Shown here one piece after another: positions 15,290-50,060 of a stretch of DNA of 64,000 nucleotides. The notes beneath the pieces were generated by a model. It made no database searches, was not told the origin of the DNA, and saw nothing but the letters and a program-made list of their open reading frames with translations. Position 1 is the stretch's first letter. Each line of letters begins with the position of its first letter. Origin of the DNA: Closterium sp. NIES-65 (taxonomy: Eukaryota; Streptophyta; Zygnematophyceae; Desmidiales; Closteriaceae). The translations under genes were made by a program, and so were the position numbers. The stretch lies in the NCBI GenBank assembly GCA_948144175.1, contig CANXME010000501.1, positions 1,240,001-1,304,000 of the forward strand, written 5' to 3'.

Positions 15290-15448
15290 CTTGGTAATCA
15301 GAGCCCGATTACACGCGAAGTTCTTTCGACCGCTAAAAACCAGTCTTCAAAAACCGCGGGGGCGACGCAGTCAAACATCGATTTCGGGCACGTAAAACCG
15401 GTTCCGTGTTTTTCGCTCCCCCTCGATTCGGTTTTTTCGGACGCGTTG

Positions 15449-15936
15449 ATGTCAGGCATGGAGGGCCAAGGCGACAACTACGCGACTACGAGCGACATCG
15501 CGAGCCTCCGCACCGACATGGAGCAGACGCAGGCGACGCTTCGTCGACTTGAGGCTTTTCTGACAAGCCAACCAGGGTTCGCCACCGCAGCAGCAGCGAC
15601 CACAGTGACTGCAGCACCGACAAATCCAGCAGCAGTGGCGACACCGACATTTCACGGACCAATGGCACGACTGTCGCCGAACCTCGAAGCAGCACGACCG
15701 AGGCTCCCGGAGGCGTTCGATCCAAGCGCGAAGGGATCTGACGTTCGGCGATTCGTGGCCACCCTCGAAATTTACTTCGAGGCCATTGGCTGTTCGACCC
15801 CGCAACACGACGCAGCAAGGATTCGGCTCGTAGCGACACTGTTACGTGGACCGGCTCTCGAATGGATTTACTACACCGACGTAGCCCGCGGGGAGAAAAC
15901 GTGGCAGCAGTTTTGGGCAGATTTAATCGAGCGTTT
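15449..15936 (+). CDS. Gypsy-E gag, first part
   Basis: Starts at ATG 15,449 after the leader. An N-terminal coiled-coil-like stretch (SLRTDMEQTQATLRRLEAFL) and an Ala/Thr-rich part are followed by the conserved gag capsid region (FVATLEIYFEAIGC, then ALEWIYYTDV and TWQQFWADLIERF). It is interrupted at 15,936 by gypsy-F. The duplicated bases GTTT at 15933-15936 and 23388-23391 allow exact joining to the second part in frame (ERF-EPINTTYMAR). Confidence 0.88.
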
Positions 15937-16719
15937 TGTCGGAAACTTGGTCTCTTTGTCACTCCTCCTGCTTTGTCCCTCCCTGCTCCGTACTTTCTTC
16001 TGTCCCACCCTTGGTCTCGTAGCAGCTCCTCCTACCCTGTCCCTCCTTTCTCTGTACCTCCCGTCCTCTGTCTCACCCCATCAAGTTCCTCAGCTCTCTC
16101 TTCATGCGTTGGGTTGCTGCTCCTGCCTTTCTCACTTTTGTGTGCTCCGGGCTCCTTGGACTCTCTCTCTCTGGGTCTTCCTAACTCGGCTGACTGCTGG
16201 AAAGCAATGAGTGGAAACCCACAAAAGGCTTGCTGGGATTGGCTCCTCCCCTTTGCGCCAATACGAGTATTGTTGTAGGTAGCTCTTAGCTGATAGAGGA
16301 AACATACAAGCAAGCAAATGATACTGCTCGTGTTGCTTGCCTAAGTATGTGCACTTGGTTACCGTTGCACGGCAACGGTTGGTTTTGTTTCGTCCGTTCC
16401 CGATCTGGCGCTATTCGCCTCTGCCTCACCCCGCTTGAATACTTCTCACTACGGTACCCTGTCATGTATTTATATTGATATGCCCTACTCACTATTCTTC
16501 AATTAAATGTATGACAGCTGTCGGAAACTTGGTCTCTTTGTCACTCCTCCTGCTTTGTCCCTCCCTGCTCCGTACTTTCTTCTGTCCCACCCTTGGTCTC
16601 GTAGCAGCTCCTCCTACCCTGTCCCTCCTTTCTCTGTACCTCCCGTCCTCTGTCTCACCCCATCAAATTCCTCAGCTCTCTCTTCATGCGTTGGGTTGCT
16701 GCTCCTGCCTTTCTCACTT
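15937..16719 (-). repeat. Unusual 3' end of gypsy-F: X - LTR - X
   Basis: A 378-bp LTR core (16139-16516) matches the 5' LTR at 23008-23387. The same about 200-bp purine-rich segment X (pyrimidine-rich on plus) flanks it on both sides, at 15937-16138 and 16519-16719. The outer X ends in TGTCGG on plus, directly at the target duplication. X is absent next to the 5' LTR. Confidence 0.85.
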
Positions 16720-16804
16720 GCCCCCTCCTCGGCGCTGGCTCTTGCTCTGGCATGTATCGCCGATGGACTCTCTGGGTGAAAGGCTCCTCCCTTGCCTGCT
16801 CCCT

Positions 16805-18052
16805 CTACTTTGCTGGGCCTGGGGATACTCGCTGGGGCCATGCCTTTGCCACATTCGTCTGATGGTCCCTCTTCTCTTGCCCCTTGTCCCCCACTAGCAC
16901 TACCACTCCAGAATCCTTGACCTCTTTCACTTTCCACCTCTCAGTGCTGAGCCCTATATCCAGCATATCTTGCCTTGCCTGCTTGACATATACTTCTTCC
17001 CCCACCCTCAACGGTGCACCCTTCGACCCTGCCTGTCCTTCTCTCCTTCGTTTGTAGCGCTGTGCATCTCTGAGCTGTGCCACATGCAGGTTCTCCAACG
17101 CCGCTGGCAGCATCTCTCGCAGGTACCTTGCCCTAACCTCGGCCAGCCCCACCCAGGCATCTACTGAGCTCACTGTGACCACATCGGTCAGTACCCATGG
17201 CGCGTCTATGGGCAAGATAGGCTCCCTTCCCAGCAGCAGGTAGTACGGCGAGAAGTCCTTTAACGCCGCCTGCTTACTGAAGCGGTAGCCTGCGACCACC
17301 CACGGGAGTCTCGTGTCCCAGTCCCTCTTGAATTGTTCCCCGTAAGCTCTCAACCCTCTCTTCACAGTCTGCACAAACCGCTCCGTGAGCCCGTCGCTTT
17401 GCGGGTGATACCTTGAGGTCCGCCGATGAGTAATACTGCTGGTTTTCAGTAGCTTCTCGAATTCTCCCAAGAATTCCGTGCCCTGATCTGTCAGTACTTC
17501 CCCACATGCTCCGAAGCGAGTCAACACTTGATCCTCAAATGCCTCAGCGATCCGGGCCGAGCTCTTGCTCGGCAGCGCCTTCACCTCCACCCACTTACTG
17601 CCGTGCTCGATCATGATGAGTATGAACCGCTTCCCCCTTCGACTGAGCGGCATTTCTCCGGCCAGGTCTAATGACCACCGGAACCCTAGGCCTCTGATAG
17701 GCAGCGAGTGCAGCTCTTCCCTCCCTCTCTCCATCTCCGCTTTGTTCCTGCTGCATAATTCGCAGGAGCCCACCCACTCTTTAATGTCTCCTCTCATTCC
17801 GACCCACCACCAGCCCGTTTCTATTAACTGGCTTGTCCGTAGGCTGCCATAGTGCCCAAGCTGCCGATGCACCCTCGCTATGATCTCTTCCCGCTCCTCT
17901 CGCCTCGGGACCAGCTTCCATCATTCCTTAGTGTTTTTCTGAAGCTGATCCTGGAACCACCGGTAATGCAGGCCCCTGGCTCTGGCCCTCTCGCTTGCAG
18001 GTTCTGCTTCCGAGGTCTTTCCTTGGATCCACCTCAGAGTCTCTTCATCCTC
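16805..18052 (-). pseudogene. Gypsy-F integrase
   Basis: It continues the pol frame after a TAG at 18053-18055; a second in-frame TGA follows about 40 codons later. The HHCC zinc finger is seen in HRQLGHYG and CELCSRNK. Catalytic residues: Asp in WSLDLAGEMP, Asp in LTDQGTEF, Glu in HPQSDGLTERFVQ. The C-terminal part (GEEVYVKQA, LSTERWKVKEV) ends without a chromodomain. The stops may be nonsense mutations or read-through sites; with two in a row mutation is more likely. Confidence 0.88.
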
Positions 18053-21000
18053 CTAGACGTCTTCGGCTCCCTTCTGAGCTTTCCGTTTGGCTCCTTCCCC
18101 ATCGATTTCTCTTGCCAATGCCACTAGGCACGCCTCTAGGCTCGAGGGTGGCGGGTTGCGCGATAGCCTGTCCACATGCTGCAATGTCTTCCCCGCTCGG
18201 TGGCGAATAGTGAACTCATATTCCTGCAGCCGCATGGCCCATCGAGCGTTCCGGCCTGTCAGGGCCTGGTTGGTCATCAGCCACGTCAGCGGCTGATGAT
18301 CTGTGACTAACACGAACGGCCTCCCCTGTAGGTACACTCGGAAGTGGGTGATAGCCCAAACTGCCGCGAGCCCTTCCCCTTCGTATGAGCTATAATTGGC
18401 TTCTGCAGGGTTACAGCTTCGGCTCGCAAAGGCCACCACCATCTCCTGTCCGTCCCTCTCCTGGCATAGAATCCCACCCATGCCTGCGCTGGTCCAGTCG
18501 GTGTAGAGTACGAACGGGTCCTCCTTACTGGGCAGGGTAAGGACGGTCCCTGTCTTCACAGCCTTGAAGAGGGCTTTGAATGCCCCCTGTTCTTCCTCTC
18601 CCCATTGCCACGCCTGGTCCTCTCGCAGTAACCTGTTCAGTACCGAGGCGGTGCGGCTGAAATTGGGTACAAACTTCCTGTAGTAGTTCAGGAAGCCCAA
18701 TACCGCCCTCAGTGTACTACGGTCCTTAGGAGCGGGGACTCTATCCAGCACCTCCACTTTCGCCTGCTGGATGCTCAGCTGCCCCCCTTGTACTTCGAAG
18801 CCCAAGTACTTCACCGTGCTGTTCCCGAAGCTGCATTTCTTCGGGTGGCATGTCAGCCCTGCTGATCGAATGGCGTCCAATGTGTCGCTCACGTCCTTCA
18901 CGTGCTGCTCTGCGGAGGCACTGAACACGACTACGTCGTCGATGTAGCAGGCTGCCGCTGGCACGTGCCTCAGCACGGAGTCCATCACCCGCTGAAATAG
19001 TGCTGGCGCGTTCTTCATGCCGAAGGGCATAAACTTCCACTCATACAGCCCGTCGGGACCATGAAAGGCCGTTTTCTTCCGGTCCTCCTCCTTGATCGGT
19101 ATTTGATTAAATCCCTGCCGGAGGTCCAGCGTGCTAAACACCACTGCTCCTTGCAATTGATCGAATATCTCTTCCGCCGATTGCATGGGGTACCTGTCCG
19201 CCACCGTCACTTTATTAAGCCCTCGGTAGACCCCACACATTCTCCTGGCTGATACTTCTCCTGTGAGATCCTTCCGCGCCGCTACCACTGTCGCCGCTGC
19301 GTAATCACTGTCAGAAACCTGGATGAGGCCTGCTGCTAACAGCTCCGCACACTTCTCCCGGCAGATGTCCAAGTCGCCTGGGCTCATTCTCCGTTTCCTT
19401 ATGTATATAGGCATCTCCGTATTCAGCTTCACCTGCATTTGATGAGAGTTGCATTGCCCCAGTTCGGCTAAGGTGTAGGCGAACGTCTTGCGGTGCTGCT
19501 TCAGCACTTCCTGTAGTAGCTGTGCTGCCTCTGCCCCCATTCCGGAGCCTATGGGCCATGCGTCCTCTGGTCCCCTCTCCTGGCTTGGCTTTTCCGTCAT
19601 AACTCTATTCTCCCCGTCGAGCGGCAGTACTCCTTGGTCCGTAGACCTGCTCCCTGCTTCCACGGCCATGTAGGCCCATCCTTCCAAGATACGAGCTTCC
19701 TGTTGCTCCTCTATGGCTCTCAGTTGGCGTTTCCGCTCCTCCGTCTCTTCCTCCTCCTGGTACAGCTCACTGACTTCAATGCCACGTTGGAGCTCTTTCC
19801 TCTTTAGGTGCATGCGAATGGTCTCCACCAGCCACGCCATGACGTTCAGGTCCATGGCTCTACCCAGCGCTGCCCTCCTTTGCGGCTCCGTCACTCGGGG
19901 GTGGGCGGTAGCTCCCAGCTGATGCCCCATGGCTAACTCCCGCTCCTCGGCCGTTGGTTGCTCCCACCTTTTTCCGATGACGTCGTAGATCATTCCGGGC
20001 CCGAGCAAGTCTCCCTCCATCACGAATCCGTAGGCGTCCACGTAGGACACGAGTGTCGGCAGCGCTTGTCTCGGCTTCCCAGGCACATTACACTGGTACT
20101 GGGACGGGTGGTCCGGCACAGTGACCGGCGCTGGCAGCCGGTTGGGGCCCAGAATGTCACTAACCAGTCTCGGTTCCGGCCGCTGCATCTGAGCAAGAGA
20201 GTGGCGTAAACTTGCTTCTGAGATCCCGTTCTGCCAGTACCTCTTGGGCCGGTGCGCTCTGGACCCCAGTTGCGCCGCGTCAACCGCTTGCCCCCTGCCG
20301 ACAGCAGCTTCTACTTCGGCGAACGCCCTGCGCACGTGTTCCCTGCGATCGTCAGCAAAGTCCACGTTCTCCAGGATGTAGAGCATTTCTCCCTGCTTCG
20401 ACTGGACCATCTCCAGTACCCGCTTTAAGTCCCTGAAAGAGGCCCCGCGAATGTCTTCCATTCCCATCCCCTCTCCGGCCCGAGAATAACCCTGACATTC
20501 CCATCCCGCCACAATGACGTCGATCTGCCCCCACATCTCGAGTGTCTCCTCCGAGATATCCCTGACATCGTCCACCACCTCTTCATGTTCAGCGGGTAGG
20601 GCGGATTCGGCCAGCTGATCGGGATATTCAGCTAGCAGCCGCCGGGCGTGATGCTGAGCCATCCGGCGCACCACTGGATCTCTCTCGACGTGAATCCACT
20701 TCTGCACCCTGCAACTAGCTCGCAACACCGCTGCCAATCCGGTGCCGATGCCGCCGTACAGCTCCATGATGCACACTGCTCCTTCCAAGGTCCAGAGCCG
20801 GGTCACTCTTTCTTTCAGCGAGGTCGGTTCTCGCCCTTGCCTCCTCCTCTCTATTCGCCGTTCGTACTCCTCCGCGCATCTCTCCCAGCTCCAGTCGTCT
20901 AGCACTGGTCCCAGGTCAGCCGCCCGCGCTCCGTAAGCTTCTCGAGGCTCTTGCTTAACGAACTTCACGGGCAGAGTACCCACGGAGCTTGCAGCGTCCC

Positions 21001-21688
21001 AGTAGTGCACGCGGTACAGCACTTTCTCCTGCCAGGTACAAATGGTGGCGCCAACTCGGTAAAGCAAATCCATGCCCACTAGCGCATCATAATCCTCGGA
21101 CTCTGACACGCCACAAGTCACGCGGATGCAGCATTCTTTGTCGGTGCCGGGAAGCAGTACTATCTCGATGGGTCTTACTGTCCGCGGCATCCATTTCGGC
21201 TCCCCTCCCTCGGCGGTCATGAGCAGGATGCCCCTCGGCACGAGCCTCCCGGGCATGTCTAGCTTCAGTTGCCTCGCTAGTCCCTTCCTGATCAACACGT
21301 GGTGAGCTCCGGTGTCAATGATCGCTTCCCCCACTGGCAACCCACCCACCGTCATGCTCCCCTTTTCGGCTATCAGGACGGAGGCTTGGCACACGAGTCT
21401 CTTGTTAGGGTGGCGCCTCAGTTCGGAGGTACTGCTTCCCTCATGCACGTTGCCGCGTGGCTCACGCACTCTGCTCGTACGGCTCTCGGACGACTGGCTC
21501 CCTCGGAGCCGAAGATCGAGGTCCTCTCTCTCCCTTGGGAACGCCATAAAGCCGCTTGCTCGCAAATACTCGCCCTCGCCTTCTTCCTCCCCCTCGACCT
21601 CCTCGTATGCCAGCATAGCTCGGGCTTTCGGCTCCACTTTAGGCTTCGCCTCCAATCGCAGTTGTAACCGTTTAATCTCCGCCTGTAA
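18053..21688 (-). CDS. Gypsy-F pol: protease - C5 DNA methyltransferase - reverse transcriptase - RNase H
   Basis: One open frame of about 1,210 codons that follows gag in the same frame after a single TAG (21689-21691). Numbering from codon 21655 as residue 1: aspartic protease IIDTGAHH at 112-119; C5-methyltransferase at about 292-613; RT at about 735-955 with TLDLRQGFNQIPI, FMPFGMKNAPALFQ and YIDD at 904-907; RNase H at about 1045-1170 with YTDWTSAG, EGEGLAAVWA, TDHQPLTWL and HVDRLSR. The methyltransferase lies between protease and RT where gypsy elements normally have only a short linker, and no stop or frameshift separates it, so it would be made as part of the polyprotein. The frame is intact through RNase H, suggesting recent activity. 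Confidence 0.93.
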   Translation of the reverse strand, partial: LQAEIKRLQLRLEAKPKVEPKARAMLAYEEVEGEEEGEGEYLRASGFMAFPREREDLDLRLRGSQSSESRTSRVREPRGNVHEGSSTSELRRHPNKRLVCQASVLIAEKGSMTVGGLPVGEAIIDTGAHHVLIRKGLARQLKLDMPGRLVPRGILLMTAEGGEPKWMPRTVRPIEIVLLPGTDKECCIRVTCGVSESEDYDALVGMDLLYRVGATICTWQEKVLYRVHYWDAASSVGTLPVKFVKQEPREAYGARAADLGPVLDDWSWERCAEEYERRIERRRQGREPTSLKERVTRLWTLEGAVCIMELYGGIGTGLAAVLRASCRVQKWIHVERDPVVRRMAQHHARRLLAEYPDQLAESALPAEHEEVVDDVRDISEETLEMWGQIDVIVAGWECQGYSRAGEGMGMEDIRGASFRDLKRVLEMVQSKQGEMLYILENVDFADDRREHVRRAFAEVEAAVGRGQAVDAAQLGSRAHRPKRYWQNGISEASLRHSLAQMQRPEPRLVSDILGPNRLPAPVTVPDHPSQYQCNVPGKPRQALPTLVSYVDAYGFVMEGDLLGPGMIYDVIGKRWEQPTAEERELAMGHQLGATAHPRVTEPQRRAALGRAMDLNVMAWLVETIRMHLKRKELQRGIEVSELYQEEEETEERKRQLRAIEEQQEARILEGWAYMAVEAGSRSTDQGVLPLDGENRVMTEKPSQERGPEDAWPIGSGMGAEAAQLLQEVLKQHRKTFAYTLAELGQCNSHQMQVKLNTEMPIYIRKRRMSPGDLDICREKCAELLAAGLIQVSDSDYAAATVVAARKDLTGEVSARRMCGVYRGLNKVTVADRYPMQSAEEIFDQLQGAVVFSTLDLRQGFNQIPIKEEDRKKTAFHGPDGLYEWKFMPFGMKNAPALFQRVMDSVLRHVPAAACYIDDVVVFSASAEQHVKDVSDTLDAIRSAGLTCHPKKCSFGNSTVKYLGFEVQGGQLSIQQAKVEVLDRVPAPKDRSTLRAVLGFLNYYRKFVPNFSRTASVLNRLLREDQAWQWGEEEQGAFKALFKAVKTGTVLTLPSKEDPFVLYTDWTSAGMGGILCQERDGQEMVVAFASRSCNPAEANYSSYEGEGLAAVWAITHFRVYLQGRPFVLVTDHQPLTWLMTNQALTGRNARWAMRLQEYEFTIRHRAGKTLQHVDRLSRNPPPSSLEACLVALAREIDGEGAKRKAQKGAEDV
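19817..20782 (-). CDS. Cytosine-5 DNA methyltransferase domain in gypsy-F pol
   Basis: About 320 residues with the C5-methyltransferase motifs in canonical order. Motif I (AdoMet binding) ELYGGIGTG at 298-306; acidic motif II in HVERDP; motif IV GWECQGYS at 384-391 with the nucleophile Cys387; motif VI ENV at 429-431; motif VIII SRAHRPKRYW at 465-474; then a likely target-recognition part, a motif IX-like stretch (TAEERELAMGHQLG, 568-581) and a C-terminal helix in the place of motif X. Motif IV has Glu where nearly all family members have Pro (PC); the Cys is kept. The motif VIII wording recalls the DNMT3/DRM branch. Predicted to methylate DNA cytosine, possibly the element's own cDNA; activity is not shown by sequence. 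Confidence 0.9.
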
Positions 21689-22771
21689 CTATTCTTTACT
21701 GGGGGTCTCCTCGGAGCGGCGCCGGCTATAGCATGCGTCGTCCTTGTGCCCCTTCCGTCCACAGTTCCCACACACTGGCAGCTTCGGGCAATCTCGCTTC
21801 AAATGGCCCACTTCCCCACATTCGTGACATCGCCGTGCGTCGGCCCGCTGTAGTCCACCGAGAGGCGACTCCGCCAGCGCCGCCGCCACCCATGAAGACT
21901 TCGTTTTAGGACGCACTTCCCCGTCTTCCAAGTCCAACATCCTCTGCGCATGCTCCGTCCTTTTAGCCAATCCGTAGACGTCCTTCAGAGTAATATCTGC
22001 GCCCATGCCGTACACAGTGTTCCGCACCACATTCCGCAGATCTTCATCTAAGCCTCGGACGAACTTGCGCACCAGTAGCCGTTCGTCTCGGCTTTCCAGA
22101 TCATCCGCAAGCTCCCTCAGTCGGCAGTAGTAGGCTAGCAAGGACTCGTCTTTTCCTCGGCAAAACTCGCAGAATTCCTCGACTCTCGCTTTAGTTTGCC
22201 CCAGAAATTCCTTCTTCAGCAGCTCGACAAACCACGCGGTCGGGTTTCCGATCTCTCCGCACGCCAGCTCCTCAAGCACTTCGTCTCGCGTCATGCGATA
22301 AAAGGTCTCGGCCTCGCCCGCTAGCGTTACTACCATCCGCCGGAAGAATTCTGCCGGGTCCAGCCCGTCCCGTTCCCAACAGTACTGCACCGTCTCCAAC
22401 AGCATCAGATAGTTCTTCAGGGTGGGACCCACGCCGGGAATTCCGGTGAACCGCTCGGCTACCTCCAGCTTCGGCAGGGATCCTGTCTGCCATCTCTTGT
22501 CGGTAGACCGGTCTTGTGGGGCGGCTGTTGAGGGTAGCTCCGCAGCTCGACTCGCTATAATCTCTCGATGCATCGGCGACCGGAACTCTCCCTCCGGCTG
22601 GCGCCGCAGCCACGTCGTCTGTGCCCGCATTCGGTCGGATTCCATCCCCGGCATCAACCCAGGGGAGTTACTAGCTGGGCGGCTCGCCCACCTTGCTCTC
22701 GCTTCCCGAGCCCGGCGCGGATCGTGAGGTGTCTCTCCTGGATCCGACGCGACGGTCCGCGAAGGCTCCAT
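21689..22771 (-). CDS. Gypsy-F gag with two zinc knuckles
   Basis: The first in-frame ATG is at 22,771 (MEPSRTVASD); the frame is open upstream to a TAG near 22,895. The capsid-like part includes KNYLMLLETVQYCWERDG, FFRRMVVTLAGEAETFY and FCRGKDESLLAYYCRLRELAD. Two CX2CX4HX4C zinc knuckles (CHECGEVGHLKRDC and CGNCGRKGHKDDAC) lie near the C-terminus, as in nucleic-acid-binding gag proteins. It ends at TAG 21689-21691; pol continues in the same frame. Confidence 0.9.
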   Translation of the reverse strand: MEPSRTVASDPGETPHDPRRAREARARWASRPASNSPGLMPGMESDRMRAQTTWLRRQPEGEFRSPMHREIIASRAAELPSTAAPQDRSTDKRWQTGSLPKLEVAERFTGIPGVGPTLKNYLMLLETVQYCWERDGLDPAEFFRRMVVTLAGEAETFYRMTRDEVLEELACGEIGNPTAWFVELLKKEFLGQTKARVEEFCEFCRGKDESLLAYYCRLRELADDLESRDERLLVRKFVRGLDEDLRNVVRNTVYGMGADITLKDVYGLAKRTEHAQRMLDLEDGEVRPKTKSSWVAAALAESPLGGLQRADARRCHECGEVGHLKRDCPKLPVCGNCGRKGHKDDACYSRRRSEETPSKE

Positions 22772-23007
22772 ATCCTCGCGCCGCCCTCGTTCCCGTTGGT
22801 GCGGGGTCCGGTACGCTCCGGTAGTCGGAGCTGGCGAGCGCCTTGTCTCCACCGCTGACACTCGGTCCAAAGAGGTCGTCGCAGCGGCGCGCTAGCTTGG
22901 TTCAGCTGAAATATCTTCTTTTCGGTAGCTGTGCCCCGATCGTAGTCTAAACCTATCGTTCATCCTAGTTTGAGAACAACGATCGGTCGCAGTCCTTGCT
23001 TGTATGT

Positions 23008-23387
23008 TGTGTGCTCCGGGCTCCTTGGACTCTCTCTCTCTCTGGATCTTCCTAACTAGGCTGACTGCCGAAAAGCAATGAGTGGAAACCCACAAAAGGC
23101 TTGCTGGGATTGGCTCCTCCCCTTTGCGCAAATACGAGTATGGTTGTAGGTAGCTCTTAGCTGATAGAGGAAACATACAAGCAAGCAAATGATACTACTC
23201 GTGTTGCTTGCCTAAGTATGTGCACTTGGTTACCGTTGCACGGCAACGGTTGGTTTTGTTTCGTCCGTTCCCGCTCTGGCGCTATTCGCCACTGCCTCAC
23301 CCCGCTTGAATACTACTCACTACGGTACCCTTTCATGCATTTATATTGATATGCCCTACTCACTATTCTTCAATTAAATGTATGACA
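23008..23387 (-). repeat. 5' LTR of gypsy-F
   Basis: 380 bp, TGTCATACA to AGCACACA on the minus strand. It is very similar to 16139-16516 but lacks segment X, and I see no usual primer site after it, so the U5/primer region may be deleted. Confidence 0.8.
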
Positions 23388-23391
23388 GTTT

Positions 23392-23869
23392 CGAACCAAT
23401 TAATACAACCTACATGGCGCGGCAGCAGATACACCGACACAAGCAATACGGTAGTGTAACACAGTACACGCAGCAGATGGAGTTACTGTTCAATCGCATC
23501 ACGGACCTGACCGAAGGCGAAAAAATCCAGGCGTACACCGAAGGGTTAAAAATGGAGATTCGGCGGCAGGTGATTGCGACGAATTACAACAACTACAGAG
23601 ACATCGTGCGTGCTGCCGAGCGATACGACGCGCTGACTCGAGGTCAACCCGAAACACGACGCTTCACGCCGAACCGTACATTCGGCACGGAGCGATCGGC
23701 ACCCCCCACGTTCGCCGAACCGATGGATATCCAGAAAAACGACGCGAAGCAGCAGCCGACAAAATGCGAATTTTGTGGCGCAGCAGGACATCAGTTTTTG
23801 TCGTGCTACAAAATGAAGAAATCACGTACGGCACTACGGGACGGAAACAGTGGAGCACCCCCGAAGTAA
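23392..23869 (+). CDS. Gypsy-E gag, second part with zinc knuckle
   Basis: Continues gag after gypsy-F: MARQQIHRHKQYGSV, MELLFNRITDL, then a CX2CX4HX4C knuckle (CEFCGAAGHQFLSC). It ends at TAA 23867-23869. The pol frame overlaps in -1: the frame reading P-E-V-K-K just before the stop stays open across copia-G and copia-H to a TAG at 59,015. Confidence 0.88.
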
Positions 23870-24225: not shown

Positions 24226-27200
24226 TCAAGAGGTGAGCAAGTGAGGTAAGACAGGTACAAGTCCCAGCTGAGTGCAGAAGCGCTGATGATCACAAGGCGG
24301 AAGTGCCTTGGTGAAAACATCAGCAGTGTTGGCCTCAGAGGCCACGTACACAAGTCGCAACTGACCACGCTGCTGCAGCTCACGAGCAAGAAAGTAGCGG
24401 AGAGCAATGTGCTTCGTTCTGTGCTCCAGGCACTGCTCTCTACACAAGGCCAGCATGGCCTTGTTGTCTACGTACAGCACTGGAGGAGAACGAGGCGGCT
24501 CTCTAAGGTCAGTCAGCAGGTAGGTGAGCCAGCGAAGCTCCTGAGCAGCCATGGCCCTGGCGTAGATCTCAGCCTCACAACTGGAGCCGAGAACAAAAGA
24601 CGAGCGAGTAGCCCGCCACGAAACAGAGCCAGAACCAAGACTGAAGGTGTAACCCTGTGACAACCGCTGACTAGCCTGGTCGTCAGCCCAAGAGGCGTCT
24701 GCGTGTCCAGTGAGGACCACTGGACTGCGCCCTCCAAGCACTAGCCCCATGCCCGACGTACTGCACAAGTAGCGCAACACCCTCTTCGCTGCAGCCATGT
24801 GCTCTGGTCGGTGTCTCCCAAGAGCAACATAGCGTGCAAGAATGCTGAGAGGGTATGCAAGGTCAGGTCGTGTGCAGGTCATCAGGTACATGAGGCAGCC
24901 AACAAGCTCTGCATACGGGCCACTCGACTCTACGGACTCATCCGAAGGCAGAGCTGAGAGCGAGTGGCGAGTAGGCAGAGGAGTGGCCTGAGGCGAGGAG
25001 TACGTGAAGCCGAAGCGCTGAAGGTCCTGCTGCACCATGTGTGACTGAGTCAGGGTAATGGTGCGGCGTGCTCTGTCCCGGGTGATCTGCAAGCCAAGGT
25101 AGCTGCGCAGTTCACCCAGGTCAGTGCACGTGTGTCTCTTCTACAGCTCGGACATCACGTAGGCGAGTCCAGCAGTGTCAGCTGTGGCAAAGACCAAGTC
25201 GTCGACGTACACGAGGATGTAGAACGGCGGCAGAGAGGTGTCAGTGCGCAAACCCAAGTGCCGCCAGCGTAGTCCTTAGTGTGTCGTGCCACTCACGCGG
25301 CGCCTGGCGGAGACCGTAGACTGGACGCCGGAGACTCCACTGGGTACAAGGAGGGAAAGACCCAGTGAAGCCAGGTGGGCGACGCAGCCATATCTCCTTG
25401 TGCAGGCTGCCCTGCAAGAAAGCAGAGCTGAAGTCGAGAGAGTGCAGCTCGTAGTCACGGTGAGCAGCAACGTGCAGCAGTACCCGAAGAGTGGTCATCT
25501 TCGGGGTGGGGGAGAAGGTCTGAAAGTAGTCAACTCCCTACCGCTGACTGAAGCCACGAGCGACGTACCGCGCCTTGAAGACAGGTGGAGAGCCCGGCGG
25601 CCGCTTCACCCTGAAGATCCACATGCCACTGACGATGTTCGCCCCAGGAGGGGGAACAGCATCAACGTAGGTGCCTGTGGACTTCCAGGAAGCCATCTCT
25701 GCATCCATAGCTGCCTGCCACTGAGAGGAGTAGGGACCCTCTACGGCCTCCGCGTAAGAGCGCGGAGTCGGGATGTCTAGTGCATCCGGGTCTCCCTCAG
25801 GGGCAAGTAGTACGGACGCGAGATGAGGTGAAGCAGCAGCCAGACACCGGAACTCCTCCTGCCTGTCCTCAAGGACGTCCGTGCCAAGAGCACACTCACC
25901 CTCGACGGACGGAGGACAGACTGACGCAGACTCAGCAACAAGACTGGCAGCGTAGTCTAGACGACAGCGAGCAGCAAATTCGACGAGCTCAGCAACAAGC
26001 GCAGACGCAACAGTGGACTCAAAAGAGGGGTCAGTAACGACAGTAGCAAGGAGACGCGTGACAGTAGGACTGGCAGTACGGAGAGAGTCTGAGTCTGGGT
26101 CGGCAAGTGCAGGAAGAGAGGACTCAGGAGGAGAAGGCAAAGGGGCACGCAGAGGAGCAGTGGACGCACGCAGAGACATCCGGTGGGTGCCAGGGACAGG
26201 AGGAGGACGCGGACGCGAACCGCGACCACTAGCGCGAGCAGCACGAACAGGCGACGCAGGACGAGATGCAGGCTCACGACGCTCAGCAAGACCTCCAGTA
26301 GGACCAGTGTAAGGAGAGGGAGCAGGAAGTGGGGAGGCGGGCTCTAACTGTGACTGTGACTAGACAGGCGGTGGACATTCTACAAGAGGAGAAAGACCAA
26401 GAACCTGCTGTAGGAGCGGAACGAAGTACGGCCGAGGCCGCGCGGCAACTCCAGACACAGCAGGGACAGCACCAGCACCCTCAGCGGCAGCACCAGCGCC
26501 AACAGCACCTCCAGCTGCAGGACCTCCAGCAGCACCAGTAGCACCCGCAGCAGGACCACCGCCAGGAAGGACAGCAGCAGTCTCAGCACCAACACCCTCA
26601 GTAGCTCCAGCGCCAGGCGGACCTGAAGGCCCAGGAGCCCCGGGACCGGCGGCACAAGTACCCTCAGCGGCAGAAGAAGCTCCAGCTCCAGCAGTACGCC
26701 TCCAGCGGCGAGCAAACCACTCGCGCAGCTCCTGTGGAGAGAGTGGCTCCCGCCGAGACGAAGCACCCGGAGAGCCTCCAGGCTCCGCACCGCCAGACGC
26801 CAGAAGGGGAGGTCCAGTGGCCGCAAGCTCCGCAACTCCAGGCTCAGCAGCACCCCCTGGCTCAGCAGCTCCTGAGGTAGCACCCCCAGGCTCAGCACCC
26901 CCAGTCGCAGCACCCCAAGGCTCAGCACCCCCAGACTCAGCACTCCCAGGCTCAGCACCCCCAGGCTCAGCACCCCCAGTCGCAGTACCCCCAGGCTCAG
27001 CACCCCCAGGCTCAGCGCCCACGCGCGCAGCACCCCCAGAGGCAGCACCCCCAGGCTCAGCACCCCCAGCAGAACCTGAGTCACCAGCAACCTTGACCGG
27101 CTACTACGTCTACCTGGGACACACCTGAAGGGGCAGGACCCTGAGGGGGAAGGGGGTCTACCTGGGGGGGACCTCGCACAAGGAAGTGCGGTGGCGGGGG

Positions 27201-30056
27201 GAGGGAAGGAGTGCGGTAGGGGAAGAGGCGGTAGAAGGGGACTGACTCGTTGAACGTGACGTCCTGGGAGGACAGAACACGACGAGAGGAGGGGTGGTAG
27301 AACTGCCACCCTGGGGCGTCAGGGGGGAAGCCTAGGAAGACATAGGGAGCAGCACGAGGGGACAGCTTGTCCGTAGACAAGTCGCGGACAAACGCCCGAG
27401 ATCCCCAGACACGGAACGCAGACGCATCGCCGACCTTCCCCGTCCACAGCAGAGCTGGGGAGGTCTCCGGCCGGGAGACCCTGGGGTAAAGGTTGATCTG
27501 ATGCGCCGCGTACCGAACCGCAAACAGCCACAGAAAATGGGGGGCAGCCGCATGCATCATGGACGTACGAGCGACGTCCATGACCATGCCAATGCGACGC
27601 TCAGCAATCCCATTTTGCTGTGGAGAGTCCGGAAGCGTAAAGGTCTGGCGGATGCCTCGTGCACGACAGTATGCTTGCAGAAGGCCAGAGGAGAACTCTC
27701 CACCTCGGTCAGAGTGCAGACGCAGGACAGGAAAGTCCGAGCCGAAGCTCCTCCTGAGCTGGAGACGAGCTGCGCGGATCCAGTCGATCAACACCTCAGT
27801 GACATCACCCTTGCAGTGCAAGGGGAAGACTGTGGTGTAACGCGAGTACTCGTCAACCAACAGCAGGAAGTAGCGCTCGTGACCCTGTCCACAGACGCGG
27901 GCGGGGCCCCGCACGTCCATGTGAAGCGTCTGCAGAGGAGCCTCTGTCGGGGGAAACTGGGAAGAGTGAGGGGCAGCCCGGAGCCGCCCCTCGACACAGG
28001 GGACATAGGAAGGTCCTGGCCCCGAAGGAAGGGGAGGGAGACCAGAGACAAGGACACGGGAAGCCATGCCCCGAAGACGAGGCAAGGAGGGGTGGCCAAG
28101 ATGGTGGTGCCACAGGAGAGTCTCGTGAGACAGGAGGCGACACGAGCAGGGGGCAGACTCAGGACCAGACCTGGACGCAGCAGCAAACACCTGACCCGAC
28201 GCAGCTACCTGGCCAGACGCAGGGACAGGAGGAGACTCAGTGGTCAGGGTGTAGAGACTCGACCCCGGCCGACGCGAAAACGTGGCCAGGTGTCGGCCTG
28301 TGCGGGCGTCCGAGCAGTGGGTCACCCGCTGACTCGCAGGAGTAAACTGGTGAACCCCCCCATCCTGCAGGTCAGCACCACTCACCAAGTTCGTCGAGAA
28401 CGAGGGGAGGTACAGACCAGACAGGGTGCCCGAGGGGGCAGCCGGACACGGGAGGACAGTGGAGAAGTGAGAGAGGACAGGGCCCCCAGAGGGGTCAGCC
28501 AGGGAGACTGCAACCGGCCGACCAAGCGGCGTGAGTGTGGTGCGGTCTCGAAAGAAGGAGCGAGAAGCCCCTGAGTCAAGTGTGAAGGTGAGGGAGGCTG
28601 AAGCCGACGCAGTACCTGAGAGCGCAGCCTCACCAGTACTTGAGAGCGCAGACGCACTGGCACCTAGAGCAGCAGCCTCACAAGCACCTAGCGCAGCAGT
28701 ACCAATGCCCGGGTCGGGCGGGAAACACCGGTAACAGTCACCCTCATCACTAATAGTCACAGCATACATGGCAGCAAGGATAGCATCAAAGTCAAGATCA
28801 AAGATAGCTACGCCAGCCCTAGACAGCTCTCCCGAGCGGGGAATCTCACTAGCCTCGGGGAACTGCTGACGCCAAGCGTCGGTCAGGCGGCCAAAGCAGC
28901 GCTGGGTGGGGTGGGCACCCCCACACTGCTCACCTGCGCGGTCGCCGGAACGAAGGACGTAGGTGCACGGACCAAAACCCCCACCACGCTGACGCTGCGC
29001 GTATCACTCACGGAGCTGCTAAGGCGGGGGGATGTCCCGAGAACGCTGCTGCTGCTGCTGCTGCTGCTGGCGCTGACCACCACCAAAGCCGCCTCCACCT
29101 CCTCCACCACCGCCGCCTCCGCTCCCACCGCTTCCGCCGCCACCGCCTCCGCCTCTGCTGCTGCCACCACCACCACCACCCCCGCCACCACTCCCACTGC
29201 CACCCCCACTCCCTCCGCCGCCTCCACCGCCACCTCCACCGCCCCCGCCAGCTCCACCCGCGCCCTTGCCCCCCTTGCCCTTGCCAGGTCGGCGTCTCCC
29301 GCTAGGGGCAGACGCCGCGCCGACCGACTCAAGACCAAGCAGGTCGGGAGCAGCAGTAGAGGCAATAGAGGGCAGCAGGGGGGAAGGAGAACACCCCTCA
29401 AAGATGGGGGTGCGAGGGTCACCTTGAGAGGCTCCTACAGCGACGATGCTCTTCTCCGCCGCCAGGAGGGCCTTCTCGAGGAGGTCAACAGTGAGAGTGA
29501 TGGGACAGACCAAGAGAAAATGGTCCCTGACTACGCGAAGGGAGTCAGGGAGGCGTGTGACTATGTAATAGAGAGTGATGTACATGGGGGGAGGGTTCTT
29601 GGCGCAGAACTCAGCAGGAAGTGCGGCGCGGTAGCGAGTGTCACTAGTGCGGAGGTGCGTAATGAGGTCGGCGACTGTGGGAAAGGCAGCAAGGTCAGGA
29701 AAGATGTACGGTAGCATGAGGCGGCTCAGTGCAGCAGTGGCAGGAGAAGAGTAGCGCGCAACTACAGCGTCGTACAAGGTCTGAGCACTCTTGTACTGAC
29801 TAAAGTGCGCGCGCTCAGTGGTAGGCAGGTGGCGACGCACAGCAAGACGTGCAGCAGCATCGCGGGTGGCCCACTGAGAGCGAACAGTGGGGTCAGCGTT
29901 AGTAGCAAGGGCAGGAGAGGCGCCAGAGGTGAGGTCAAAGAGAGGAAGACCGTCCGCCCTATCGCACTGTAAAAACAGCTGCAGGTCGTCGACCCAGACC
30001 TCAAAGTCAATGGCTCGACCCTCAGCGTCAAAAGTGAGGACACTAGGGGTAGCCAT
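24226..30056 (-). pseudogene. Copia-G gag-pol, disabled by stops and a frameshift
   Basis: Gag starts at ATG 30,056 (MATPSVLTFDAEG), followed by a Gly-rich and Gln-rich stretch; protease LDSGASRSFF; integrase with HMDVRGPARV, LHSDRGGEFSSG and QQNGIAERR; a long Pro-Gly-Gly-Ala-Glu linker; RT and RNase H end (TGHADASWADDQ, LYVDNKAML). Stops at 29019, 26360, 25538 and 25141 all fit CAG to TAG changes; a frameshift lies near 27,085 and a deletion near 25,245 has removed part of the RT. Copia-J is the intact relative. Confidence 0.92.
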
Positions 30057-30119
30057 GACGACGATAGACTAGCAGTGCAAGCAGTAGGGGAAGGGCACGC
30101 AGTGACTGTGGGGCTGCGC

Positions 30120-30915
30120 TCACCGGACAGGGCAGGTCGGGCGGCTCGGTAGTAGGGCGGCTCAGCTGCTGGGCGGCTCTACGGCTGGGCGGCTCGGCGG
30201 CTCGGCGCTCGGGTGCTGGGCGGCTCGGCTGGTGGGCGGCCGGGCGGCTCTGCAGCTGGGCGGCCCGGCTCCTCCGGTACTCGGCGGCGCGGCGGTCGGC
30301 TGCTCGGGTGCACGCTGCTCAGGAGAGTGGCAGGGCCGCAGCAGACGGACGGCGGGGCCCCAGGTGCAGGGCGACGGGGCCGCAGCAGAAGGGCGGCGGG
30401 GCCGGTAGAGTCGGGCGGCGGGGCCGCGAAGTGGGGCGGCGGGGCCGCAAGGTGTAGGGCGGCGGGGCCGCTAAAGCAGGGCGACGGGGCCGCGAAATGA
30501 AGGGCGGTGGGGCCGCGAGGTGTAGGGCGGCGGGGCCGCTAAAGCAGGGCGGCGGGGCCGCGAAGTGTAGGGCGGCGGGGCCACTGAAGCAGGGCGGCGG
30601 GGCCGCTAAAGCAGGGCGACGGGGCCGCTAAGGAAGGGCGGCGGGGCCGCTAAAGCAGGGCGACGGGGCCGCTAAGGAAGGGCGGCGGGGCCGCGAAAGC
30701 AGGGCGGCGGGGCCGCGAAATGAAGGGCCGCGGGGCCGAGAAAGCAGGGCGGCGGGGCCGCGAGGTGTAGGGCGGCGGGGCCGCTAAAGCAGGGCGGCGG
30801 GGCCGCGAGGTGTAGGGCGGCGGGGCCGCTAAAGCAGGGCGGCGGGGCCGCGAAGTGTAGGGCGGCGGGGCCGCTAAAGCAGGGCGGCGAGGCCGGTAAA
30901 GCAGGGCGGCGATAC
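30120..30915. repeat. GC-rich tandem repeats in the copia-G leader
   Basis: First units around GGGCGGCTCGG (30,130-30,300), then some 25 units of about 20-33 bp built on GGCGGGGCCGC with an A/T-containing spacer. They lie between 5' LTR and gag, as in copia-H and copia-J. Confidence 0.9.
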
Positions 30916-31050
30916 CATGAGAGAAGTTGAACGAGAATGATGATGACTAAGTGAAGGTTGGGTACAAATACAACCCTTAGAAAGCTGTACCCCATATGTG
31001 CTACCCCACTATAGCCTACAATAGCTATGTCATATATATCTGACATCGCC

Positions 31051-31149
31051 AGTGGCCGCGGATCGACCGGGCGATCACGTAAAGATCCGAAAAGCAGGAA
31101 AAGGCGACGACGTGGTGACTTCGGAGCGGGTGAAAAAAGGAGAAAAAGA
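31051..31149 (+). other. 99-bp piece of gypsy-E between copia-G and copia-H
   Basis: Both ends carry the target duplications TCGCC and AAAGA. One frame (A-D-R-P-G-D-H-V-K then V-V-T-S-E-R-V-K-K) stays open and links gag overlap to pol. Confidence 0.85.
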
Positions 31150-31491
31150 TGACGAGAAGTGAGAATGGAATGAATGAACTATGAAACAGTTGGGTACAAG
31201 TACTAACCCTAATTGGGTTGTACCCCTTATGGGCTACCCCACTACAGCCTACACAAATGTATAAGCTATAATGTTCTGACACACCCCCATAGGCAAAGTG
31301 GGGGAGAACAAGTGGTCACAAGACCAGTCAAGCAAAGCAAAGCAAAGCATAGCAAGCTCAGGGTGGATCACAAAGTCACCACACAATCCGAGAACAAGAG
31401 TAAGGCCATAAGGCCAGTTCACATGCAAGGTCATATATATAAAGGTAAAAGAAGCGAGGGCAGCTATAGAAATAAGACAGTACAAACAAGA

Positions 31492-34400
31492 TCAAGAAGT
31501 GAGCAAGTGAGGCCAGGTAGGCACAAGACCTAGCACAGTACAGAAGCGCTGATGATCACAAGGCGGAAGGGCCTTGGTGAAGATATCAGCAGTGTTGGCC
31601 TCAGAGGCCACGTAGGTGAGGCGGAGCTGACCACGCTGCTGCAGCTCACGAGACAGGAAGTAGCGGAGAGCAATGTGCTTCGTTCTATGCTCCAGTCTGT
31701 GCTCCCGACACAAGGCCAGCATGGCCTTGTTGTCTACGTACAGAACTGGAGGAGAACGAGGCGGCTCTCCTAGGTCAGTCAGCGGGTAGGTGAGCCAGCG
31801 TAGCTCCTGTGCAGCCATGGCCCCTGCGTAGATCTCAGCCTCACAGCTGGAGCCAAGAACAGAGGACGAGCGGGTAGACCGCCACGAGACAGAGCCGGAG
31901 CCAAGGCTGAAGGTGTAACCCTGTGACGACCGCTGCGTAGCCTGGTCGTCAGCCCAAGAAGCGTCAGCGTGACCTGTGAGGACTACTCGACGTCGCCCTC
32001 CAAGCACTAGCCCCATGCCCGACGTACTGCACACGTAGCGCAACACCCTCTTCGCTGCAGCCATGTGCTCTTGTCTGTGTCTCCCAGGAGCAACATAGCG
32101 TGCCAAGATGCTAAGAGGGTATGCAAGGTCAGGTCGAGTGCAGGTTATCAGGTACATGAGGCAGCCAACAAGCTCTAGGTACGGGCCACTCGACTCTACG
32201 GACTCATCCGAAGGCAGAGCTGAGAGCGAGTGGCGAGTAGACAGAGGAGTGGCCTGAGGCGAGGAGTACGTGAAGCCGAAGCGCTGAAGGACCTGCTGCA
32301 CCATGTGTGACTGAGTCAGGGTAATGGTGCGCTGTGCTCTATCCCGGGTGATATGCAAGCCAAGGTAGCTGCGCAGTTCACCTAGGTCTGTGCACGTGTG
32401 TCTCTTCTACAGCTCGGACTTCACGTGGGCGAGTCCAGCAGTGTCAGCAGTGGCAAAGACCAGGTCGTCGACGTACACGAGGATGTAGAACGGCGGCAAA
32501 GAGGTGTCGGTGCGTAGAAATAGCGACGGGTCGGCTGTAGAAGGAGCAAACCCAAGAGCTGCAAGTATAGTCCTCAGTGTGTCGTGCCACTCACGGGGCG
32601 CCTAGCGGAGACCGTAGACTGGCCGCCGGAGGCTCCACTGGGTGCCAGGAGGAAACGATCCAGTGAAGCCAGGAGGGCGGCGCAGCCAGATCTCCTCGTG
32701 CAGGCTGCCCGGCAGGAAAGCAGTGCTGAAGTCAAGAGAGTGAAGCTCGTAGTTGCGCTGAGCGGCTATGTGCAGCAGCACCCGAAGAGTGGTCATCTTC
32801 GGGGTGGGAGAGAACGTGTGGAAGTAGTCAACTCCCTGCCGCTGACTGAAGCCTCGAGCCACGTAACGCGCCTTGAAGACAGGCGGAGAGCCCGGCGGCG
32901 GCTTCACCCTGAAGATCCACATCCCACTGACGATGTTCGCCCCAGGTGGGGGAACCTCGTCGACGTAGGTGCCTGTGGACTTCCAGGAAGCCATCTCTGC
33001 GTCCATGGCCAACTGCCACTGAGAGGAGTAGGTACCCTCGATCGCTTCAGCGTTCGATCGAGGAGTAGGGATGTCTGGTGCATCCGGGTCTCCCTCAGGG
33101 GCAATCAGCGTGGACACGAGATGGGGTAAAGCAGCCGCAAAGCACTGGAACTCCTCTTGTCTGTCCTCAAGGACGTCCGTGCTAAGAGCACACTCACCCC
33201 CGACGGACGGAGGACAGACAGACTCAGACTCAGCAACAAGACTGGCAGCGTAGTCTAGACGACTGTGAGCAGCGAAGTCGACAAGCTCAGCAACTAGAGC
33301 AGACGCAGCAGCAGACTCAAAGGAAGGGTTAGTGACGACAGTAGCAAGAAGGCGCGTGACCGAAGGACTAGCAGCACGAAGGGAGTCAGACTCCGGGTCA
33401 GCAAGAGAAGGAAGAGAGGACTCTGGAGGAGATGGCAACGGGACACGCAGAGGAGGAGTGGAAGGACGCAGTGCCATCTGGTGTGTGCCCGGGACCGCAT
33501 GAGGACGCGGACGTGCACTACGACCACTAGTGCGAGCAGCACGATCAGGTGACGCGGGACGAGACGCAGGCTCACGACGCTCAGCAAGACCTCCAGTAGG
33601 ACTTGTGTAGGGAGAAGGAGCAGGTAGAGGGGAGGCGGGCGGTAACTGTGACTGCGACTGGACAGGCGGTGGACACTCTAGGGGAGGAGCAGGACCAGTA
33701 GAGGGCGGGAGACCAAGGACCTGCTCTAGGAGCGGAACGAAGTACGACCTCGGCCGCTCAGCGCCTCCAGAACCAGCAAGTACGGCACCAGTACCCCAAG
33801 TGGCAGCACTAGCGCCAGCAGAACCTCCAACTCCAACAGCGCCAACTCCAGTACCCTCAGAAGCACCAGCGCCAGCAGCACCACCAGCGCCAACACCCCC
33901 AGCAGCTCCAGCTCTAGCAGCACCAACTCCAGTAGGACCGTCAGCACCAGCTGCCTCAGCAGCACCCCCAAACGCACCAGCACTAGTAGAATCACCAGCG
34001 CCAACACCCCCAGCAGCTCCAGCTCCAGCAGCACCAGCTCGAGTAGGACTGTCAGCACCAACTGCCTCAGCAGCACCCCTAGACGCACCAGCACCAGTAG
34101 AAACACCAGCGCCAACACCCCCAGCAGCTCCAGCAGTACCCCCAGACTCAGCAGCACGTCTCCAGCGGCGTGCGAACCACACGCGCAGCTCTTGTGGAGA
34201 GTGCGGCTCCCGCCTCGACGAAGAACCGCTGGTGGCCACACAAGCAGACCCAGCACCCCCAGGCTCCGCACCCCCAGGCTCAGCACCCCCAGGCTCAGCA
34301 CCCCCAGGCTCAGTACCTCCAGTCTCAGCACCCCCAGACTCAGCACCCCCAGACCCGGCACCCGTAGACCCGTCACCCGCAGGCTCAGCACCTCTAGCAG

Positions 34401-37328: not shown

Positions 37329-37379
37329 AACAGCAGTAGGCAGGGTAGTGCAGTGGCAGAGACTGTGCTCTTACCAGAT

Positions 37380-38264
37380 AGGTGGAGCGATCGGGCTGCT
37401 CGGCGGCTCTGCTGATGGGCGGCTCGGCTGCAGGGCGGCTTGGCTGCTGGGCGGCTCGGCTGCTTGGCGGCTCGGCTGCTGGGCGGCTCGGCTGCACGGT
37501 GCTGGGCGGCTCGGCTGTCGGGCGGCTCGGCTGCTGGGCGGCTCGGCTGCCGGGCGGCTCGGTTGCTGGGCGGCTCGGGCGGTCGGGCGGCTCAGCTGGC
37601 CGGCGGTTCGGCTGCTCGGCGCTGGGAGGCGGGGTCGCAGGTGGTGGCGAGGTCGCAGGTGGTGGCGAGGTCGCAGGTGGCGGCGTGGTGGGGCCACGAC
37701 GGGGCCGTAGCGGGGCCTAAGCGGGGCCGTAGCGGGGCCGACGGGGCCGAAGCGGGGCCCAAGTGGGGCCGTAGAGGGGCCGACAGGGCCGAAGCGGAGC
37801 CGCGACGGGGCCGTAGCGGGGTTGTAGCGAGGGCGCAGCGGGGCCTAAGCGGGGCCGACGGGGCCGAAGCGAGGCCTGAGCGGGGCCGCGACAGGGCCGA
37901 CGGGGCCTAAGCGGGGCCGACGGGGCCGTAGCAGAGCCGTAGCGGGGCCGTAGCGGGGCCGACGGGGCCGTAGCGGGGCCGTAGCGGGGCTGACGGGGCC
38001 GACGGGGCCGTAGCGGGGCCGTAGTGGGGCCGTAGCGGGGCCTAAGCGGGGCCGACGGGGCCGTAGCGGGGCCGTAGCGGGGCCTAAGCGGGGCCGACGG
38101 GGCCGTAGCGGGGCCGTAGCGGGGCCGTAGCGGGGCCGTAGCGGGGCCGACGGGGCCGACGGGGCCGTAGCGGGGCCATAGCGGGGCCGTAGCGGGGCCG
38201 TAGCAGGGCCTAAGCGGGGCCGACGGGGCCGTAGCGGGGCCGTAGCGGGGCCTAAGCGGAGCCG
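37380..38264. repeat. GC-rich tandem repeats in the copia-H leader
   Basis: First units around GGGCGGCTCGGCTGC (to about 37,620), then about 35 units of GGGGCCGTAGC or GGGGCCGACG. The array is cut by transposon I; a last piece with GGGCGGC lies at 58621-58675. Confidence 0.92.
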
Positions 38265-43276: not shown

Positions 43277-43745
43277 AGAATGGATGGCTGTCGATAACGC
43301 ATCTACGCTTGTGCGTTGGGCCTGTGCTTCATACCACTCCTTCTAAGCACCTTGTGTAATGTCTGCGCAAGAATGGATGACAATCCAACACCATACCACA
43401 ACGGATTCACCAAGTCGCGCAACGCGGAGGCCTGAACGATGCATCGTCGCACAGTCTAAACATGGCTGTCGATAACGCATCTACGCTTGTGCGTTGGGCC
43501 TGCGCTTCATACCATTCCTTCTAAGCACCTTGTGTAATGTCTGTGCAAGAATGGATGACAATCCAGCACCATACCACACCGGATTCACCAAGTCGCGCAA
43601 CGCGGAGGCCTGAACGATGCATCGTCGCACAGTCTGAACATGGCTGTCGATAACGCATCTACGCTTGTGCGTTGGGCCTGCGCTTCATACCACTCCTTCT
43701 AAGCACCTTGTATAATGTCTGTGCAAGAATGGATGACAATCCAAC
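43277..43745. repeat. 178-bp tandem array, left part
   Basis: About 2.6 units, 97-99 percent alike by eye, containing CGCGCAACGCGG, GATGCATCGTCGCACAG and AACGCATCTACGCTTGTGCG. Interrupted at CCAAC by copia-J. Confidence 0.93.
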
Positions 43746-44074
43746 AGTGGAAACAAAGAACGAGAATGAAATGACTATGAACGAAGTGAGTACAAATAGG
43801 AAACCCTAATTGGGTTGTACCCCCTATGGGATACCCCACTATAGCCTACAGAAACAAGTAAGCTATAAGTTCTGACACACCCCCATAGGCAAAGTGGGGG
43901 AGAACAAGGGGTCACAAGACCAGTCAAGCAAAGCAAAGCAAAGCTCAGGGTGGATCACAAAGTCACCACGCATTCCGAGCACAAGTTCAAAGGCCACAAG
44001 GCCAGTTCACATGCAAGATCATATATAGAGATATACAAGAGCAAGAGTATATATATGCGAAAGTACAAGCAAGG

Positions 44075-50017: not shown

Positions 50018-50060
50018 GACAGCAGCTGAAAATCTCACCGGGCTGGGAGAGGCGGGTAGG

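Follow-up and report, generated by a model that had tools for sequence, protein, structure and literature searches.

Retrotransposons that carry a DNA methyltransferase of their own have been described from the alga Klebsormidium and the dinoflagellate Symbiodinium (PMC5890265). This precedent was correctly cited by the first-pass annotation of the DNA studied here, a 64,000-nt window (the whole stretch analysed; contig CANXME010000501.1, positions 1,240,001 to 1,304,000) from Closterium sp. NIES-65. According to the part of the paper cited here, KnitGypsy-Dnmt3 of Klebsormidium nitens has a DNMT3 domain in its Gypsy Pol frame, lacks introns, is under purifying selection and has repeats likened to those of the DIRS element (PMC5890265). 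In Symbiodinium, SymbioDIRS-Dnmt3 carries a DNMT3 type, as here, with DIRS instead of Gypsy machinery, and SymbioLINE-Dnmt carries a DNMT in LINE machinery, which gave no methylation in yeast (PMC5890265). The same part reports the gypsy-type case from Klebsormidium alone, as an acquisition in that lineage. A 2025 paper places DNMT3 in streptophyte and dinoflagellate retrotransposons, naming long terminal repeat (LTR) Copia and DIRS families in the part cited (PMC12344493). Our literature search found no report of a DNMT3-carrying gypsy element in the host group of Closterium. Cytosine methylation usually silences retrotransposons, so it is paradoxical that one should retain, under selection, a methylase of its own.

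The Closterium window contains such an element. What the first-pass annotation saw is thereby confirmed, and its interpretation is supported in part; it left unmentioned a motif IV Glu, three stops and terminal repeats unlike ordinary LTRs. DNMT3-carrying gypsy elements were already known; added here are a further host group, a probable shared origin and an integration architecture. Our joint reading, which we hold to be evenly balanced between right and wrong, is an old, multi-family lineage of DNMT3 gypsy elements that would prime their own reverse transcription, integrate from circles and methylate their own DNA. At the level of sequence, it builds on the domain order, the DNMT3 identity and catalytic residues of the domain, the low dN/dS, the element ends, the repeats and the primer site.

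The element, its domain and its copies

The element and its coding parts were located as follows (ORF, open reading frame; RT, reverse transcriptase).

15937..23387, minus strand: whole element, 7451 bp, with ends TGTC...GACA, a flanking 4-bp duplication, and an interrupted gag ORF restored on joining the flanks
15933..15936, no strand: left target-site duplication GTTT, matching 4 bp on both sides
23388..23391, no strand: right target-site duplication GTTT, matching 4 bp on both sides
21689..22870, minus strand: gag ORF with CCHC zinc knuckle (Pfam zf-CCHC 1.4e-5), ended by a TAG within the gag-pol frame
18053-21655, minus strand: pol ORF with protease, methyltransferase, RT and RNase H
21011..21385, minus strand: aspartic protease domain, alignable with other copies (Pfam gag-asp_proteas 1.3e-4 and Asp_protease_2 1.6e-4, both below the curated cut-off)
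19806..20785, minus strand: DNMT3-type C5-cytosine methyltransferase domain with motif IV GWECQ, from profile and structure-database matches and motifs
18656..19435, minus strand: RT (Pfam RVT_1 2.6e-34)
18206..18625, minus strand: RNase H (Pfam RT_RNaseH 1.5e-33)
16805..17872, minus strand: integrase ORF in the pol frame, H2C2 and rve core (Pfam 7.9e-12 and 7e-9)

The ends proposed earlier, 15937 and 23387, proved exact, with GTTT at both and flanks that rejoin. Joined with a single GTTT, the flanks give an uninterrupted gag-like frame of 325 aa; the element has thus inserted into the gag of a further element (15446-15936 and 23392-23869, plus strand). Gag, pol and integrase share a single frame of 2021 codons, interrupted in the window copy by three premature stops; those at 18053-18055 and 17921-17923 separate the integrase ORF from pol, and the methyltransferase domain has none. 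The window copy is probably unable to move. Its domain order (gag, protease, RT, RNase H, integrase) is that of Ty3/gypsy elements and was also found in other copies. A Pfam scan of the gag, pol and integrase ORFs listed no tyrosine recombinase, the DIRS hallmark; rve was found instead.

The claim of a Ty3/gypsy-type pol with its own cytosine-5 (C5) methyltransferase (MT) is well supported by Pfam, by the domain order of the copies and by profile matches in the PDB. The MT motifs stand in DNMT order, I to X, without the permutation of DRM; the order of motifs I, IV, VI and VIII had been noticed before. In the PDB profile search DNMT3A matched at 6.3e-24, and the other C5 families were weaker: the best DRM-like entry, 4onj, at 5.6e-13, DRM2 at 7.7e-11, HhaI at 4.2e-10 and DNMT2 at 3.9e-8. 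By these matches the domain is nearer DNMT3 than other C5 methyltransferases, and it shares 61 of 258 aligned residues with DNMT3A. It has its fold and catalytic motifs in common with the DNMT3A/DNMT3B catalytic domain, and Pfam found no further domain within it. De novo CG methylation, as by DNMT3, is a putative activity of the domain.

A PF00145 search of the genome (874 Mb in 2400 contigs) ended with 123 scored matches among 901 candidates, and the first 21 of these 123 places were analysed, making 22 loci with the window. As the 21 had been picked by the MT domain, an adjoining RT was the actual test, and all 21 hold the two together. Their order is gag, protease, MT, RT, RNase H, integrase as far as parts are present; gag and protease were not seen in L012, L024, L025 and L026, nor the integrase in L016. 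L021 belongs to the window's family (proteins 91-96% identical), and the remaining loci are 45-76% identical to the window in matched pieces of the MT domain. In 11 of the 22 copies, the window included, more than 90% of this domain is open. Open frames of 1715 to 1795 codons run from protease to integrase in L015, L017, L022 and L027, and one of 1953 codons from gag into integrase in L009. L014 has repeat arrays of ~28 bp period on both flanks.

Median dN/dS was taken from pairs with dS between 0.02 and 1.5. It was 0.061 for the MT domain, where the strength of the argument is reduced because the five pairs come down to two independent comparisons (dS of 1.0-1.2). The other medians were 0.061 for RT (9 pairs), 0.055 for integrase (5), 0.114 for RNase H (23) and 0.256 for protease (30). 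MT-domain pairs at dS <0.02 with a computable ratio gave dN/dS of 0.46 to 1.26 and were uninformative.

The KnitGypsy-Dnmt3 lineage is marked by a Gypsy Pol with its DNMT3 sited between protease and RT, by purifying selection and by DIRS-like repeats, and the Closterium elements show all of these. The two MT domains are 41% identical over 254 residues; the hosts differ, and motif IV reads PCQ in the Klebsormidium element and ECQ in that of Closterium.

Possible function and origin of the captured domain

The methyltransferase would methylate the DNA of its own element, ahead of integration or during it, and DNA so marked would pass as host DNA or escape attack. Since one polyprotein supplies the enzyme together with RT and integrase, the DNA intermediate would be its nearest substrate. 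Self-methylation of cDNA, which the first-pass annotation also suggested, has already been proposed for such elements, and two SymbioDIRS-Dnmt3 domains, distant relatives, methylate CG in yeast (PMC5890265). Some points speak against this role: KnitGypsy-Dnmt3, the closest tested relative, was inactive in yeast, a result called inconclusive by its authors (PMC5890265), and the C/T differences described below equally fit general host silencing.

Differences of C/T type between repeats of the same insertion were counted as a methylation footprint at 12 loci, with L017 dropped as the same insertion as L015. They were found at 25 of 545 CG, 28 of 770 CHG and 36 of 2446 CHH sites (CG versus CHH, p = 2.8e-5; CHG versus CHH, p = 5e-4); with L017 added, the counts were 27/596, 31/843 and 41/2648. 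By this enrichment inserted copies appear to have borne methylation at CG and CHG sites, as in plants. The footprint is not creditable to the element's own enzyme. It would also be expected if the methyltransferase marked new insertions or nearby chromatin for silencing, a self-restraint lowering the cost to the host that is named as a possibility in the part of PMC5890265 cited. We regard this as unlikely, though not strongly so: enrichment at CHG suggests, from general knowledge of plant methylation, host enzymes and not a CG-type DNMT3, copia paralogues in the window lean in the same C/T direction, and CpG observed/expected is 0.83 in the window element, not below the 0.78 of the rest of the window.

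Relatives were collected by three protein searches, two queried with the MT domain and one with RT plus RNase H (120 of 403 matches listed). Among the matches listed the best were proteins of Closterium strains; one of them, P0072 from Closterium sp. Yama58-4, matches 63% of the RT-RNase H query at 97% identity. By themselves such relatives would very likely place the host in Closterium, a zygnematophyte. An MT profile was matched by 97 of the 174 proteins returned, in two domain orders. MT precedes RT in proteins of Closterium, Klebsormidium and several others; the domains of the K. nitens protein P0018 are, in sequence, protease, MT, RT, RNase H and integrase, and it groups with the others in the MT tree. 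In proteins from jgi, ena and lgn sources, MT follows RT and RNase H and is itself followed by the integrase where present. A PHD-like finger ends seven of the ten tree proteins of this second order, as well as P0096 and P0110 of the first. In the Pol proteins P0013, P0017, P0122, P0125, P0137, P0138, P0140 and P0160 the MT precedes the integrase and a PHD finger follows, a possible pair of writer and histone reader in one element.

The domain is also present in liverwort proteins (Marchantia P0014 and P0015, Calypogeia P0010). No RT was found in these three, so a tie to a retrotransposon is not established for them; P0014 has a weak protease-profile match before the domain, and Pfam reports PF00145 only. 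A separate Calypogeia RT protein, P0102, falls within the 73-row side of the RT tree described next.

The relatives suggest that DNMT3 was captured once, long ago, in a lineage that includes at least the elements of Closterium and Klebsormidium, that the domain later changed its place inside Pol, and that it is linked to the repeat architecture; one capture and one move is the simplest reading of the sequences. The two domain orders could also stem from two separate captures, with MT entering between protease and RT in one case and between RNase H and integrase in the other, and the MT tree, with DNMT3A on a long branch as its single outgroup, has no host DNMT3 of algae or plants among its rows. 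We nevertheless consider two captures improbable, since all ten rows of the order RT, RNase H, MT group in a single 18-row clade (99/95), and in P0123, the sister of that clade, MT precedes RT (97/94). In the RT tree, made by a quick method, every MT-bearing row likewise lies in one 73-row side (SH-aLRT 99), with 28 MT-less rows outside.

Residue conservation was counted in an alignment of 56 rows, with the rows readable at each position as denominators. The catalytic Cys is present in 54/54 rows, the motif VI Glu in 55/56, the motif VIII Arg in 54/54, and the first and second motif I glycines in 49/49 and 45/49. Just before the catalytic Cys, 42 of the 54 readable rows have Glu, 9 have Pro, 2 Ser and 1 Asp, and GWECQ was read in 21 of the 22 genome copies including the window, the 22nd, L012, being uncovered there by the match used. 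The element thus departs from DNMT3A and DNMT3B, which have Pro before Cys, and the absence of the DNMT3 Pro-Cys dipeptide from motif IV counts against our joint reading. Along with the inactivity of the Klebsormidium relative in yeast (PMC5890265), the change from Pro to Glu hints at a domain kept for DNA or RNA binding or for RNA methylation and no longer a DNA methyltransferase. This we find quite doubtful, as the Cys, the motif VI Glu, the motif VIII Arg and nearly all motif I glycines are retained in the different lineages, which would be needless for mere binding.

Split repeats, putative self-priming and a proposed integration route

The repeats A and B and the sites beside them are as follows.

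23007..23387, minus strand: repeat A1, element 5' end, 96.3% identical to A2
23172..23185, minus strand: putative self-priming site within A1 and inferred RNA start, a 14-nt perfect complement of the primer-binding site (0/200 shuffles)
22995..23008, minus strand: primer-binding site where A1 ends, complementary to the A site and covarying with it between families
16720..16730, minus strand: polypurine tract GAGGAGGGGGC directly before B1, with similar sequence in the same place in other copies
16519..16719, minus strand: repeat B1, 99.5% identical to B2
16513..16527, minus strand: B1/A2 junction TTTCCGACA-GC-TGTC, palindrome GACAGCTGTC, with the polypurine tract before it in 13/22 loci
16138..16516, minus strand: repeat A2, from repeat comparison
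15937..16137, minus strand: repeat B2, element 3' end, from repeat comparison and the duplication

Along the element strand, A1 is followed by the genes, the polypurine tract, B1, GC, A2 and B2, and the B1/A2 junction consists of both element ends joined with GC between them. The 13 loci with the junction TTTCCGACAGCTGTC or a near variant after a polypurine tract were found with search patterns derived from copies already inspected. The split arrangement was also seen in L013, L015, L020, L021, L023 and L028 (B partial in L015 and L021), and in L011, L017 and L022 once further stretches were included. Directly outside A1 and B2, a perfect 4-bp duplication was present in 8/8 independent insertions with both ends in view (AAAC in the window, as read on the element strand, then TATA, TGAC, TGAA, TCTC, ATAC, CTCA and ACGC). 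L015 and L017 have common flanks and were therefore counted as one insertion; in the other 11 loci the two ends are not both visible.

Short target-site duplications with an rve integrase, and a polypurine tract and primer-binding site adjoining the repeats, are Ty3/gypsy features, the primer site here being self-complementary. Identical LTRs at each end, also typical of that group, are not found: A stands at one end and A-B at the other, with an extra B inside. The element is therefore classed as a gypsy-type pol with split direct repeats and not as an ordinary LTR element. DIRS/PAT elements have the same A-genes-B-A-B order; they use a tyrosine recombinase and are not known to make target-site duplications, whereas the Closterium element has an rve integrase and 4-bp duplications. 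Ends, duplications, self-priming and palindrome are not described for KnitGypsy-Dnmt3 in the part of PMC5890265 cited, and our literature search listings held no account of such an integration architecture. Ordinary A+B LTRs, of which the 5' copy lost B and a chance extra B arose near the 3' end, would fit the ends TGTC...GACA, which resemble usual LTR ends, but are very improbable, as judged from the 22 loci covered, given the same arrangement in several diverged families, the duplications directly at A1 and B2, a polypurine tract before B1 with the primer site after A1, and the DIRS-like repeats of KnitGypsy-Dnmt3 (PMC5890265). The split-repeat architecture is not a product of the ordinary LTR replication cycle.

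In 7/8 copies, 11-14 nt at the end of A1 are the complement of a site within A, a length equalled in each case by at most 1 of 200 shuffles. The priming-site sequences vary between families: the longest match is 5-10 nt between different families and 11-14 nt within the window/L021 and L009/L013 families, and the L011/L015 matches are 13, 9, 8 and 7 nt. Such covariation of primer site and A site is as expected of a self-primed Tf1-type element, and we infer an RNA start inside A, 102-179 nt before its end. Tf1/sushi-type self-primed Ty3/gypsy elements likewise have a primer-binding site complementary to their own RNA start; they have ordinary LTRs and, to our knowledge, no DNMT.

The repeats point to an unusual insertion route, in which circular DNA might be involved. 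From the positions of polypurine tract and primer site, reverse transcription would give LTRs of B then A, unlike the integrated copies, which start at A and finish at B. We propose that RNA synthesis begins within A1 and that the transcript acts as its own primer for reverse transcription, that the product would be linear DNA with LTRs of B+A, and that its ends would be joined into a two-LTR circle. The integrase would then cut the circle at the internal palindrome GACA-GC-TGTC, leaving circularly permuted integrated copies: a circle B-A-B-A-genes opened at the second palindrome would give exactly A-genes-B-A-B. The A2/B2 joint would be formed anew by end joining. Whereas the palindrome side is constant, A2/B2 joints vary: in L022 A2 runs ~270 nt past the primer site and B2 lacks 14 nt, in L023 A2 is ~60 nt longer and B2 lacks 33 nt, and L028 has 8 extra bases, all consistent with end joining. 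Less easily reconciled with this route are that the second circle product, A-B-A-genes-B, from cutting the other palindrome, was not seen in the copies read; that the complement in L015 is just 8 nt, equalled by 25/200 shuffles; and that L009 and L021, tried for duplications, are without a full B2.

A more specific idea, which we put forward with little confidence, is that an integrase-type element integrates from a two-LTR circle by the palindrome cut and that its own methylase modifies that circle. CpG methylation beside the cut site (CCGACAGCTGTC) would possibly protect the circle or help to choose the palindrome cut. If true, DIRS-like repeats and captured methylases would be linked for a mechanistic reason. 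The role of the methylase thus becomes testable in a unicellular alga, through the circles, ends and methylation of the element.

Other elements in the window

A Ty1/copia element with a 2017-aa open frame (44075-50128, minus strand; weak gag match, integrase, RVT_2) lies between repeats 43284-43746 and 51294-51756, which are 98% identical, the right-hand one multiplied. At 24300-37570 two diverged copia stretches follow each other, with pieces 75-92% identical; the ORF at 27081-28769 has an integrase and that at 32602-34803 SH3-like and RVT_2 matches. A tandem array of 15-bp repeats (26818-27102) adjoins the first of these ORFs. A chromodomain-bearing gypsy element with three ORFs and without a methyltransferase match occupies 59174-62803 on the plus strand.

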